NCBI RefSeq assembly: GCF_009695545.1
Contig: NZ_VUNS01000004.1
Span: 186,001 to 250,000, forward strand
Direction of reading: 5' to 3'
Length of the DNA: 64,000 nucleotides
Source: Victivallis lenta
GTDB taxonomy: Bacteria; Verrucomicrobiota; Lentisphaeria; Victivallales; Victivallaceae
Of this stretch, positions 32,191 through 36,560 are shown piece by piece. The translations under genes and the position numbers were made by a program. The notes below the pieces were generated by a model. It had not been told where the DNA came from. It saw only the letters and a list, made by a program, of their open reading frames with translations, and ran no database searches. The stretch's first letter is position 1. Every line of letters begins with the position of its first letter.

Positions 32191-32898
32191 CTATTCCGTC
32201 GCAAATTTATAAGACGAATCGATCTTTTCGGCATCCTTGCCGTTCTGCTTTGGATAATATCTCTTCTGATTGGTCAAATCTCCTTCCGACAACGTTTCCG
32301 TATGCCCGTCAAGGAAGAAGAAATTCGTACCCTTTCCATGAATCAAGAACGGCTTGCCGCCACTACCGTCAGCAAGGTCCAACAAATGCGATGCCGTTTT
32401 GGTATCCGTGCCGGTGACAGAACAACCTCCCATAACCAGAGCTGACGGCGACACCTGAAAATTGTCCGCATAAAGATGCCGGGTTCCTCGGAAATCAAAC
32501 CCCTTCAAATCAGTGGCCGAAGCAAAAACCATACCATAGGTCTGCTTTAGGTCGGAAGTGATCCGGGTCTCGTCGTTTGTCGAATTGGAGTTGCTGTAAT
32601 TGACGACGGAGGGGCAACGCAGAACGTTCGGGTCCTGATTCAGCTTGCGCCAATAAAGCGCAATTCCCCAGATATACTGGTTACCGGTGGTATCCGCTGA
32701 TATGAGATGCTGGTCGGATTCATTCATATAGGCACTGATGAATGCCGTCGTCTGTTTCTGATTATTGAGGCATTTTGCAGCTTTGGCGCGCTCTCTCGCA
32801 CCATTGATCGCGGGGATCAGTAACCCGGCAAGAATCGCAATGATCGCAATGACCGCCAAAAGCTCCGTAAGCGTGAAGTTCAAACGCTTCTGTTTCAT
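32191..32898 (-). CDS. Pseudopilin-like protein
   Basis: A 235-residue protein starting [20 protein letters not shown], a prepilin-type helix with N before F and T in place of the usual I at the third position; the +5 glutamate is kept. The body holds LRCPSVVNY and a C-terminal [18 protein letters not shown], the H-x9-DG-like signature. AAGGGACG precedes the ATG. It is divergent from the GspG-like gene at 33115 and has its own promoter. No glycoside hydrolase is adjacent, unlike the three other members of this class. Confidence 0.85.
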
Positions 32899-33114: not shown

Positions 33115-33783
33115 ATGAAAAATACGGGAATCTTTAAGATTATGAAAACGCGACATTCATTTACTTTGACCGAACTTCTGGTCGTCATCGCCATCATCGC
33201 CATTCTTGCCGGGTTGCTGATCCCAGCCGTGATTCTCGGCCAGCAGCGCGGACGCATCACGCAAGCCAAGGCGGATATGAAAACACTGGAAACCGCCATC
33301 AAATCGATGGAAGGGACTTATCAGCAGATGGTCAAAAACGGCAAGGCTTATATGTCCAAACCATCGGGAAGTAAAAATTATATCAAAATCGGTGGAACAG
33401 ATTTCAACACAAGCGAATATGATAAATACATCGTAGAGCTTTCCGACCCGAAGAATCAGATTTTCAAAGATCCCGATAAGCTTAATATCAATAAGCGCCG
33501 AATTCAATTCCTTGAACCAAAGTCCGGCTACGACCCGACTCAGGACGGCGACGATGCCGCCAACCTGCCGTTTCTCTGGCGCGATCCCTGGGGAAATCGC
33601 TATGTGTTCCTGATAGATGTGGAATTCAACGACCAGATCGAAGTTCCGTATAAAACCAGCCAAAAACTGGCCACCAAGCTTGCGATTTATTCGCTGGGAC
33701 CGAATGGAACAAACGACGATGGAGCCAATGCGTCGGAAGGCACTGGTACCGACAGACAAGACGATATCGTCAGCTGGAAGTAA
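33115..33783 (+). CDS. GspG-like major pseudopilin
   Basis: A 222-residue protein. ATG 33115 or the internal ATG 33142 (MKTRHSFTLTELLVV) could be the start; neither has a strong ribosome-binding site. The prepilin helix keeps the +5 glutamate, with S before F. The C-terminal region LPFLWRDPWGNRYVFLI and IYSLGPNGTNDDG matches the conserved end of GspG, the major pseudopilin of type II secretion, whose calcium site lies in that loop. It is the only bona fide GspG-type protein here; the other four are shorter-conserved relatives. Its codons look less GC-rich than those of neighbours, and a strong terminator follows. Confidence 0.85.
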   Translation: MKNTGIFKIMKTRHSFTLTELLVVIAIIAILAGLLIPAVILGQQRGRITQAKADMKTLETAIKSMEGTYQQMVKNGKAYMSKPSGSKNYIKIGGTDFNTSEYDKYIVELSDPKNQIFKDPDKLNINKRRIQFLEPKSGYDPTQDGDDAANLPFLWRDPWGNRYVFLIDVEFNDQIEVPYKTSQKLATKLAIYSLGPNGTNDDGANASEGTGTDRQDDIVSWK

Positions 33784-33804: not shown

Positions 33805-33836
33805 ACGGCGCGGAGTTGATTCCGCGCCGTTTTTTT
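33805..33836 (+). terminator. Rho-independent terminator after GspG-like gene
   Basis: ACGGCGCGGA and TCCGCGCCGT form a perfect 10 bp stem with loop GTTGAT, followed by seven T. Confidence 0.92.
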
Positions 33837-33915
33837 GTCCGGGAAACTGGAAAAAATGTGTTTTGCGTGTATATTCCCCACACAAGAAAGAGGACATGTA
33901 CACAAGGAGCAGGGC

Positions 33916-34947
33916 ATGAGTTCATTCGGCAGATCGCGTGATTTTCTGGTTTATCTGGCGGTGCTGATCCCCTATCAGGCGATCCGGCTTATGCCGTATC
34001 CGGTCGTCAAAGGCATGGCGCGGCTCTGCGGCGGAACCATGAACCTGATTCCGTCGATCCGCAACCTGGTGCGGGCCAACATCCGGACCGCCTTCCCGGA
34101 ATATTCCGAAACGGAGGTTGCACGGGTCGGCAGCCGCTCGCTCTACAACCTCGCGCTGAACATGGCCGAATTCATCTGGCTCAACGGCCGGCCGGACCGG
34201 ATCGAGCGCTGTTATTTCCTGCCCCCCGACGTGACGGAGCGGCTGAAGGGACACGTCGCCCGGAAGGAGCGCATCATCTTCGTGAATCCGCACCTCGGCA
34301 GCTGGGAGGCGTCCGGCGTCATGGCCCCGTATTATGCGGGAGTCGATATGGTCGCCATCGCGAAGCCGGTCCGCAACCCGTATCTGAACAAAATGATCAA
34401 CAGCGGCAACCGGGAAAAGGTCCGGGGGCTTGAAATCATTTTTTCGAGCGGAGCGATCCGGGCGGCGACGAAAGCGCTGCGCGACGGCCGCGGCGTCGGC
34501 ACCCTGATCGACCAGAACACCCGGGTCCGGGACGGCGGCAGCTTCGTGAACTTTTTCGGGCTGCCGGTATCGAGCAGCACCGCCCCGGCCCACCTGATGA
34601 AATACTGCATCGCCCACGAAATTCCGGCCGTCATCATCTACGGCACGAGCGTGCGGCACGAGGACGGCCGGGTCCATGCCCACTCCGCCTATCTGCCGAA
34701 GCCGTTCTCCGAGTACGGCGACGAGACGGAAGTGCTTCAGGACCTGATGAACATCTCCGAGGAGTACATCCGGCGCTACCCTGACCAGTATCTGTGGTTC
34801 TACCGCCGTTTTCAGAACATCGAGCCGACCTGCCCGGAAGAGCTCAAAAAGCGGTATCCTTATTATTCGAAGGTGGTGGGGCCGCACTTCTACCGCAAGA
34901 CGAGCCGCGATATCAAAGCCGAGAAAGCGGAACGCCGCCAGCCGTAA
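33916..34947 (+). CDS. Lipid A biosynthesis acyltransferase (LpxL/HtrB family)
   Basis: Start ATG 33916 after AAGGAGCAGGGC; 343 residues. The family's H-x4-E catalytic motif is NPHLGSWEA (H126, E131). An N-terminal hydrophobic segment (FLVYLAVLIPYQAI) anchors it to the inner membrane. GVGTLIDQNTRVRDGGSFVNFFG and YPDQYLWFYRRFQ are further family blocks. It adds a secondary acyl chain to lipid A or a related lipid, which supports a Gram-negative envelope. Its stop lies 11 bp before the hairpin-rich element. Confidence 0.9.
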   Translation: MSSFGRSRDFLVYLAVLIPYQAIRLMPYPVVKGMARLCGGTMNLIPSIRNLVRANIRTAFPEYSETEVARVGSRSLYNLALNMAEFIWLNGRPDRIERCYFLPPDVTERLKGHVARKERIIFVNPHLGSWEASGVMAPYYAGVDMVAIAKPVRNPYLNKMINSGNREKVRGLEIIFSSGAIRAATKALRDGRGVGTLIDQNTRVRDGGSFVNFFGLPVSSSTAPAHLMKYCIAHEIPAVIIYGTSVRHEDGRVHAHSAYLPKPFSEYGDETEVLQDLMNISEEYIRRYPDQYLWFYRRFQNIEPTCPEELKKRYPYYSKVVGPHFYRKTSRDIKAEKAERRQP

Positions 34948-34958
34948 GGGGGAGCGAA

Positions 34959-35110
34959 GCGACCGGGTTCAGGGCCATTCGGCCCTGGCGGGATTCCAAA
35001 GGCCGCGAAGGCCTTTGGTGGAGTTTGAGGCAAAGCCTCAAGCTGACCCGGGCGAAGCTCCAGCTCAGAAGACCGCAACAAAGTTGCGGCGCTTCGACCG
35101 GTGTGAGCGA
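34959..35110 (+). repeat. 152 bp direct repeat, copy A
   Basis: Matches 35511-35662 with one difference (A versus G in the loop of GCAAC-AAA-GTTGC) and no gap. It contains hairpins GGGCC-ATTC-GGCCC, CCAAAGGCC-GCGAA-GGCCTTTGG, TTGAGGC-AAA-GCCTCAA and GCAAC-AAA-GTTGC. Confidence 0.95.
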
Positions 35111-35155
35111 CGCGGCGAACGCCGTGGAGCGGTCAAAGGGTCTGCCGCCTTGCAA

Positions 35156-35207
35156 TTCCGACAAACAAGGGTTGATCGGAGCCGCAAACATTGTTAAAAT
35201 GCGAGCT
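35156..35207 (+). repeat. Palindromic module, copy 1 of 3
   Basis: TCCGA pairs with TCGGA, followed by GCCGCAAACATTGTTAAAAT and GCGAGCT. Related modules lie at 35424-35474 and 35712-35763. Confidence 0.8.
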
Positions 35208-35227
35208 ATCAAGGTTGTAGACAGGGG

Positions 35228-35423
35228 GATGCGCGCCCCTTCCGGGGCGCGGTCTTTTTGCGCATCCGCGCAACAGACCGTGCGGGCTCCCCGTCCGAAT
35301 CTTCGATTCGGTTTGTGAGCTGGTCGGTACGCACGCAGGTTGCCTCCGGCGGCCGGGGCGCTTCGCCCCCGAACCCCAGACCGGCAGGGTGCCGGTGCCG
35401 ACGGCGGCTCTGCCGCCTTGCAG
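35228..35423 (+). repeat. Hairpin run, unit A
   Basis: Stems GCGCCCC-TTCC-GGGGCGC (35233-35250), TGCGC-ATCC-GCGCA (35259-35272), CCGAATC-TTC-GATTCGG (35295-35311), the GGGGCGCTTCGCCCC stem (35355-35369) and GGCGGC-TCT-GCCGCC (35403-35417). The same order recurs at 35785-35981. Confidence 0.85.
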
Positions 35424-35474
35424 TTCCGGTCAACAACGATTGACCGGAATCGCAGACATTGTTTGAATGCGAAC
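35424..35474 (+). repeat. Palindromic module, copy 2 of 3
   Basis: TTCCGGTCAA and TTGACCGGAA form a perfect 10 bp inverted repeat around 6 bases, followed by CGCAGACATTGTTTGAAT and GCGAAC. Confidence 0.8.
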
Positions 35475-35510
35475 CCCTGATGCCACAACACGCCGGCAGG
35501 GAGCGCCTGC

Positions 35511-35662
35511 GCGACCGGGTTCAGGGCCATTCGGCCCTGGCGGGATTCCAAAGGCCGCGAAGGCCTTTGGTGGAGTTTGAGGCAAAGCCTCAAGCTGACC
35601 CGGGCGAAGCTCCAGCTCAGAAGACCGCAACGAAGTTGCGGCGCTTCGACCGGTGTGAGCGA
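35511..35662 (+). repeat. 152 bp direct repeat, copy B
   Basis: Second copy of the 34959-35110 block, exactly 552 bp downstream, with one mismatch. Confidence 0.95.
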
Positions 35663-35711
35663 AAGCGGCCAAAGGCTGCGAAGCGACCCAAAAGGCCTAT
35701 CGCCACGGTGA

Positions 35712-35763
35712 CTCCGGCAAACAATGGTAGACCGGAGCCGCAAACGATGTTAAAATGCGAGCT
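35712..35763 (+). repeat. Palindromic module, copy 3 of 3
   Basis: CTCCGG pairs with CCGGAG, followed by CCGCAAACGATGTTAAAAT and GCGAGCT. Confidence 0.8.
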
Positions 35764-35784
35764 GTCTTTGTGATATATTCCGGA

Positions 35785-35981
35785 GATGTCCGCCCCTTTG
35801 GGGCAGACGTGGTCTTTATGCGCCTCCGGCGCAACAGACCGTGTACGCTACGCGGCAAAATTTCATTTTGCTGGTGTAGCTCTCCCGCTCCGCGTACAGA
35901 GGCCTCCGGCGGCCAAGGCGCTTCGCCCTTGGAACCCGACCGACAGGGTGCCGGTGCCGACGGCGGCTTACGCCGCCTTTA
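35785..35981 (+). repeat. Hairpin run, unit B
   Basis: Counterpart of 35228-35423 with altered stems: GTC-c-GCCCC-TTT-GGGGC-a-GAC (35788-35808), TGCGCC-TCC-GGCGCA (35819-35833), GCAAAAT-TTC-ATTTTGC (35855-35871), CCAAGGCGCTTCGCCCTTGG (35913-35932) and GGCGGC-TTAC-GCCGCC (35962-35977). Confidence 0.85.
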
Positions 35982-35984
35982 CTT

Positions 35985-36560
35985 TCATGTCCTGGCCACG
36001 CCGCTTTTTCTCTTTTTTATACGCCAGGCGAGCACTGCGAGGATCACGCCCCAGTATCCTGCCACGATCCAGAGGTTCTTCCCGAAACTCCAGCCGTCGA
36101 AGCTCCAGTCCGACAACGGCCAGAAAACCGGCGTCGCAAAATAGCTCCTGCCGTGCACCGGAATGTCGCAGAGAATATGAACCGGCCATGCCAGATACGG
36201 CAGGAAACCCGGTTTCCAGAAAAGCCGGACCAGCACTCCCGCCGCCAGCGCAATCACCAGACTGTGGGTCAGCTGATAATTCAGGATGACGTAGTGCGGC
36301 AGCATCTCCACCGGCGGCGCCGCCGCCATGACGTCGCCCGCCAGAAAGCGCCGCAGCATCTCCCGGAGCTCCCCCGAAAACAGCATGCCGCAGAAGTGCA
36401 CCCCGAAACTGGCCAGATCCGGCATGCTGCCGAAACCGGCGGCGGCCCAGAATGTCCAGTCCCTCCAGAACGGTTTTCCGGTCGGGTGCTTTACCGCACG
36501 TACCCCGGACCTGCTGAAGAAAAGCCCGCCGATCGCCGCATGCGCAAGCGTATCCATCAA
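35985..36560 (-). CDS. Membrane-bound metal-dependent hydrolase-like protein
   Basis: A 191-residue polytopic inner-membrane protein. MDTLAHAAIGGLFFS at the N-terminus, NYQLTHSLVIALAAGVLV in the middle and LAWPVHILCDIPVHGRSYF near 145 carry conserved histidines and aspartates in membrane segments, as in the YdjM-like putative metal-dependent hydrolases. The substrate is unknown. The gene overlaps the epimerase stop by 4 bases, so it is the last gene of an operon with the epimerase, pssA and psd. Its stop directly abuts the hairpin-rich element. Confidence 0.72.
   Translation of the reverse strand: MMDTLAHAAIGGLFFSRSGVRAVKHPTGKPFWRDWTFWAAAGFGSMPDLASFGVHFCGMLFSGELREMLRRFLAGDVMAAAPPVEMLPHYVILNYQLTHSLVIALAAGVLVRLFWKPGFLPYLAWPVHILCDIPVHGRSYFATPVFWPLSDWSFDGWSFGKNLWIVAGYWGVILAVLAWRIKKRKSGVART

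Follow-up and report, generated by a model that had tools for sequence, protein, structure and literature searches.

A modular, hairpin-rich intergenic repeat of Victivallales resembling pneumococcal BOX elements

Introduction

The BOX elements of Streptococcus pneumoniae are composed of boxA-boxB(n)-boxC, in which the ends of boxA and boxC hybridize; they are enriched between convergent genes and have been taken for non-autonomous parasites (PMC3049150). In bacteria, 92 families of stem-loop-containing repeats have been described (PMC2267715), and template switching at the DNA level has been proposed as a mechanism by which perfect stems are created and kept (PMC8794818).

Here, we describe a hairpin-rich intergenic space of Victivallis lenta, which is located in a stretch of 64,000 nucleotides (contig NZ_VUNS01000004.1, positions 186,001 to 250,000; hereafter the window). 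Like BOX, the element is modular, variable in tandem number, intergenic, highly base-paired, enriched at convergent genes and presumed to be non-autonomous (PMC3049150). However, its units of 200-280 bp are much longer than the BOX modules and G+C-rich, and a relation in sequence is not claimed. The ends of its arrays are unpaired, whereas those of BOX are paired, and as paired ends were not found, we do not file it as a BOX element, though it works like one. With stem-loop repeat families such as REP/BIME, ERIC and RUP, it shares a high number of intergenic copies and a common predicted fold (PMC2267715), but it is much longer, has linkers that are kept order-wide and stems that are exchanged, and shows no association with Y1/RAYT. 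MITEs are likewise non-autonomous, folded and expand in lineage-specific bursts (PMC3049150); in contrast to these, the element has neither terminal inverted repeats nor target duplications in its own genome, although a relative in another genome, G016, has inverted ends. Acido-Lenti-1 (RF01687), a candidate RNA, is also a structured sequence from Lentisphaerae (PMC2864571); the window and the element, however, match no Rfam family. A preliminary description of the locus knew of no named element with such a layout, which is right for the sequence, as Rfam is silent, while the layout is of much the same kind as that of BOX in pneumococcus (PMC3049150).

Architecture of the array and its neighboring genes

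The 1.04-kb intergenic space at 34948-35988 is filled by four modules, which form the array A-B-A'-B'. It starts directly after the stop (34947) of a gene for a lipid A acyltransferase of the LpxL type (33835-34947, plus strand; PF03279, E 1.5e-36), whose start at 33835 is that of the mechanical ORF, so that the true start may be further in, and it ends at the stop (35985) of a convergent gene for a YdjM-like membrane protein (35985-36560, minus strand), an assignment resting on a weak match below the cut-off (PF04307, E 0.003). That the element reaches to the stop of the downstream gene had been seen correctly before; the start, which had been placed 11 bp behind the upstream gene, has to be moved to right behind its stop. 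Two units of the same order had been proposed at 34959-35423 and 35511-35981, and these were recovered as A-B units at 34949-35491 and 35506-35988 with their modules in the same order. The units, given as about 470 bp, are thus real, but each consists of two modules, A and B, which are also found separately elsewhere in the genome.

The modules were delimited by nhmmer and by two covariance models, R1 for the core of B (58 positions, from 11 sequences) and R2 for the core of A (100 positions, from 7 sequences); all four are read on the plus strand. The first A unit (34949-35227; nhmmer segmentation, R2 match at 34959-35058, repeats D1/D2) comprises an outer stem around three hairpins, conserved linkers and a 67-nt tail. 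The first B unit (35229-35491; R1 match at 35342-35400) consists of a GGTCT..AGACC stem, a variable stem, a GCCTCCGGCGGCC-hairpin-GAACCCC-ACCGGCAGGGTGCCGGT core, a GGCGGC/GCCGCC hairpin and a tail, in this order. Unit A' (35506-35790; nhmmer segmentation, R2 match at 35511-35610) is followed by unit B' (35792-35988; R1 match at 35902-35959), which belongs to a B subtype differing from the first copy and whose 3' end, GGCGGCTTACGCCGCCTTTAC, coincides with the stop of the gene that follows. A and A' are 99% identical over the first 152 bp; the other modules common to both halves are 72-94% alike, and their order is kept.

Three long ORFs inside the element have no Pfam match, and a decayed coding sequence was rejected on these grounds. 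In agreement with the preliminary description, domains of transposases, integrases, reverse transcriptases or Cas proteins are absent from the genes tested on either side (about 29.5-42 kb). Upstream of the element, two genes (32191-32898 and 33115-33780) in divergent arrangement encode prepilin-like proteins that have N-terminal methylation motifs; only the second (33115-33780) passed Pfam.

Copies in the genome and their position behind genes

In the genome of V. lenta (5.5 Mb, 78 contigs), 54 blastn matches were obtained, which correspond to about 30 loci after merging of neighboring matches. The loci carry A and/or B, either alone or in tandem, and include the array types A-A-A-A-B-B (L013), A-A-A (L019), B-B-B (L023) and A-B as well as solitary A or B units; within arrays, A recurs with a period of about 281 bp. 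A comparison of these loci shows that arrays lengthen or shorten as A and B modules are gained or lost in tandem. Because the same modules are seen at about 30 distinct loci, whose flanks differ, and also in the assemblies of other species, an assembly artefact is unlikely. At L019 (about 2001-2114), the end of the A-A-A array adjoins the inverted first 40 bp of A, thereby forming a near-perfect palindrome. A hairpin GAGCTTAT..ATAAGCTC is found inside the A stem at L029 (about 2014-2139) and directly before the A unit behind RecN at L024 (about 2090-2120), which suggests nesting of hairpin modules.

Of 27 loci in the genome, 13 lie between convergent and 10 between co-directional genes, none is found between divergent genes and four are located at edges, compared to 25 co-directional, 11 convergent and 10 divergent gene pairs in the window. 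Given the divergent share of 10/46, the probability of finding 0/23 divergent loci is about 0.004, with gene calls taken from a simple home-made caller. In other Lentisphaeria, none of 75 cores overlaps a called gene and 4 of 40 placed cores lie between divergent genes; in the congener G007, such an overlap is seen for 8 of 21 cores, and some of the genes concerned are apparently false calls.

In two congeners, G002 and G003, only a few tens of bases separate the convergent genes for LpxL and an epimerase, and both the element and a YdjM-like gene are missing; the absence of the latter makes the exact insertion site unreadable there. MetG is separated from the next gene by about 30 bp in G002 and G003, versus about 460 bp with a degenerate copy at L021, and the RecN and lipase genes, which adjoin each other in G005, have an A-B copy between them at L024. 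Since congeners lack the element at corresponding junctions, it is, as judged from these gene junctions, a lineage-specific gain behind genes.

The location between the stops of two convergent genes and the GGCGGC/GCCGCC hairpin at the 3' border would suit a dedicated bidirectional terminator or insulator that is selected between convergent genes. However, sites resembling intrinsic terminators (a G+C-rich stem with a T tract behind it) number 3 versus 2.1 +/- 1.5 in shuffles, LpxL and its neighbor manage without the element in G002 and G003, and many copies are found between co-directional genes, so that we regard such a function as very improbable. An intrinsic terminator as such was rejected because the site count is at chance level.

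Relatives across the order Victivallales

R1 matches were found in 15 of 100 relatives, among them G007 with 55 B cores, and R2 matches in five genomes, namely G000 and four others including G016 (32 A-like cores). Each family is specific to a species and numbers up to 55 copies; the linkers are kept and whole stems are exchanged. Judged by these model matches, the element family occurs across the order Victivallales (Lentisphaerota). When 84,980 species were scanned with a DNA pattern for the B core, at least 80 loci were obtained; among the matches listed, 72 belong to Lentisphaeria/Victivallales, and the 8 remaining loci gave no convincing R1 match.

In G007, which belongs to the same genus, several of the 55 B cores are arranged as inverted pairs and form large palindromes between genes. 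Three intergenic palindromes of this genome (L116, L118 and L119; about 0.7-0.9 kb) carry B cores in inverted orientation at both ends, around a repeated centre of the GGCAACAATACAATTGCC type. G053, a member of another family, contains a tandem 412-bp unit, the A-like part of which was detected by R2, whereas its B-like part was recognized by eye only and not reported by R1.

G016, a member of the same family as V. lenta, carries a 294-bp element with an A-like core inside (R2, E about 1e-8) and the terminal inverted repeats GGCTSTGTACTAAAC, which is present in over 40 copies with T or A runs as insertion sites. In some of these copies, a second hairpin is nested in a loop. The inverted ends and the T- or A-rich sites suggest that a transposase may act in G016, and they are consistent with a transposase-mobilized MITE, whose ends would be recognized in trans by an IS transposase and whose hairpins would be passenger structure. 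In the genome of the window, however, the array ends have no terminal inverted repeats (the longest exact inverted match is 4-9 nt, with no common end sequence), and no target duplications surround the arrays, the longest flank repeat having a mean of 4.9 nt versus 4.8 nt in shuffles in a test that ancient or decayed duplications may escape. This absence of a transposition signature also counts against the repeat that we favor below. An autonomous IS with the G016 ends was not found in the stretches examined, and Y1 transposases (PF01797) number zero in the copy-rich genomes G007, G016 and G088 and two in G000. The same absence of Y1 from G007, G016 and G088 led us to reject REP with RAYT, and we consider the MITE improbable.

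No family in Rfam 15 was matched by the window or the element at the gathering or a permissive threshold (best sub-threshold E 1.5), which upholds the preliminary description. A search of the window for tRNA and tmRNA gave no hit, and literature on repeats in Lentisphaerota provided no lead. Distant blastn searches of phage and plasmid collections were empty as well, and a phage or plasmid element was rejected. G+C-rich intergenic hairpins that may be similar occur in Desulfovibrio and Treponema.

Hairpins, covariation and the question of RNA or DNA

The preliminary description had emphasized the richness in hairpins, and this was borne out by a strict local search (at least 7 Watson-Crick pairs, loops of 3-6), which found 14 hairpins in the 1041-bp element; first-order shuffles have 1.7 on average, and the window's remaining 1041-bp stretches have 2.4. 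For the first A-B unit, folding gave a z of -7.45.

Strong covariation is usually read as proof of a selected RNA. In model-aligned matches, 23 of 28 pairs of the A stems and 10 of 13 pairs of the B stems show changes on both sides, with 160 double-sided change cells in A (38.5 in shuffles) and 77 in B (21.8 in shuffles). The observed covariation score was reached by 0/500 shuffles, and slid structures fell far below it; as the alignments were fitted to the models, they lean towards structure. The exchange of whole stems is, in addition, plain in raw copies, for instance CAAGGGGC/GCCCCTTG for TTAAGGAC/GTCCTTAA. Covariation and a fold far stronger than that of shuffles would both be expected if A and B were structured non-coding RNAs, that is, tandem small RNA genes with a promoter at the preceding junction and a fold selected as RNA. 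The missing Rfam match, the variable copy number and the lineage-specific gain at non-orthologous sites argue against this explanation.

A selected RNA strand is expected to tolerate G-U above A-C. The main count was restricted to pairs with a Watson-Crick majority and complemented by a run in which G-U was forbidden. In the specified stems A3 and A4, 30 G-U and 24 A-C deviant cells were counted (A3 21:12, A4 9:12), and local hairpins contain 3 G-U versus 5 A-C, which are small numbers. With G-U forbidden in the prediction, the ratios for the own genome are 18:13 in A units and 3:5 in B units. RNase P of 28 genomes of the same order, which served as control with a predicted rather than curated structure, gave 60:16; its G-U excess shrinks to 24:12 with G-U forbidden, which speaks against a reading at the DNA level. 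In 14 tRNAs, 26 G-U and 0 A-C were found, but ARAGORN itself favors G-U. Unrestricted RNAalifold folds are G-U-rich on the plus strand (174:17 in A, 96:10 in B and 189:22 in RNase P), which likewise counts against a DNA reading; on the reverse strand, the ratios are 75:25 and 28:11. These counts were not relied on, as RNAalifold looks for G-U pairs whichever strand it folds; if they were preferred, the rating of the RNA explanation would rise. Although the contrast is built on few deviant cells and on stem lists drawn up from Watson-Crick stems, G-U and A-C have a similar, low frequency in the specified stems, and this balance leans towards a constraint at the DNA level over a selected RNA fold, for which little or no G-U excess is seen.

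Promoter-like sequences are found on the plus strand at the junctions A to B (35172-35200; TTGATC-17-TAAAAT), B to A' (35440-35468; TTGACC-17-TTGAAT) and A' to B' (35728-35756; TAGACC-17-TAAAAT), each with TG before the -10. TG precedes the -10-like hexamer in all 23 junctions inspected, and 18 of the 23 match the sigma-70 consensus in at least 8/12 positions at 17-nt spacing; in the region of the window, there are 4 promoter-like sites, whereas shuffles have 0.2; the plus strand carries 3 of the 4, including 2 at junctions. Furthermore, the arm of the tail hairpin opposite the promoter-like junction is more variable. The units may be transcribed from these junctions, and such sequences would be needless for a purely passive repeat. 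However, the first unit of most arrays stands behind a gene and has no promoter-like junction, and the junctions are closely related copies, so that sequence conservation there is partly due to descent. The RNA explanation keeps its standing because promoter-like sequences recur at unit junctions, yet it appears rather unlikely to us. The preliminary description had left the choice between structured RNAs and a DNA repeat kept for its structure; what stands is a repeat family with conserved structure, and the evidence leans to the DNA option because of the near symmetry of G-U and A-C, the lineage-specific insertion behind genes and the chance level of terminator-like sites.

A repeat probably maintained at the DNA level

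With a probability of roughly 0.6, the array at this locus belongs to a modular, BOX-like interspersed repeat of Victivallales that is non-autonomous and undescribed, and the stems of which are kept by DNA-level events. Its copies would land or be copied just behind genes, mostly at convergent pairs, and would mainly be tolerated at gene 3' ends. The hairpins would be a property of the DNA repeat itself, in which stems change as matched pairs and linkers stay. Most simply, perfect stems would be re-made either by template switching between the arms or by exchange of whole hairpin modules between copies. DNA template switching probably keeps the stems perfect; since it is able to make or mend such stems (PMC8794818), it would explain strong covariation with few wobbles. 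If transcripts ran through it, the repeat would give them a highly stable structure at the 3' end and would keep convergent genes apart.

It is tempting to go further and to speculate, as a long shot, that these are Victivallales-wide DNA elements whose hairpins are recognized in the form of single-stranded DNA or of a cruciform, in which the stems undergo active rewriting and the linkers persist, and which have a copying mechanism of their own aimed at gene 3' ends. If this were true, structure would be passed on more faithfully in this repeat than the sequence of the stems. The repeat has many copies and very strong covariation, yet shows little sign of an RNA strand, in many genomes of one order; it is thus a natural test case for whether template switching at the DNA level can create and keep perfect stems (PMC8794818), and a warning for pipelines for the discovery of structured RNAs.

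Among the genomes sampled from the genus, the repeat-rich G000 and G007 are the largest, with 5.5 and 5.2 Mb, respectively, versus 2.0-3.8 Mb in G001-G006 and G008. Members of the 294-bp family of G016 (L114 1352-1646, L107, L322, L328) are often located at contig ends, and as copies of the repeat are found at many contig ends, it is probable that assemblies of Lentisphaerota genomes break at them.
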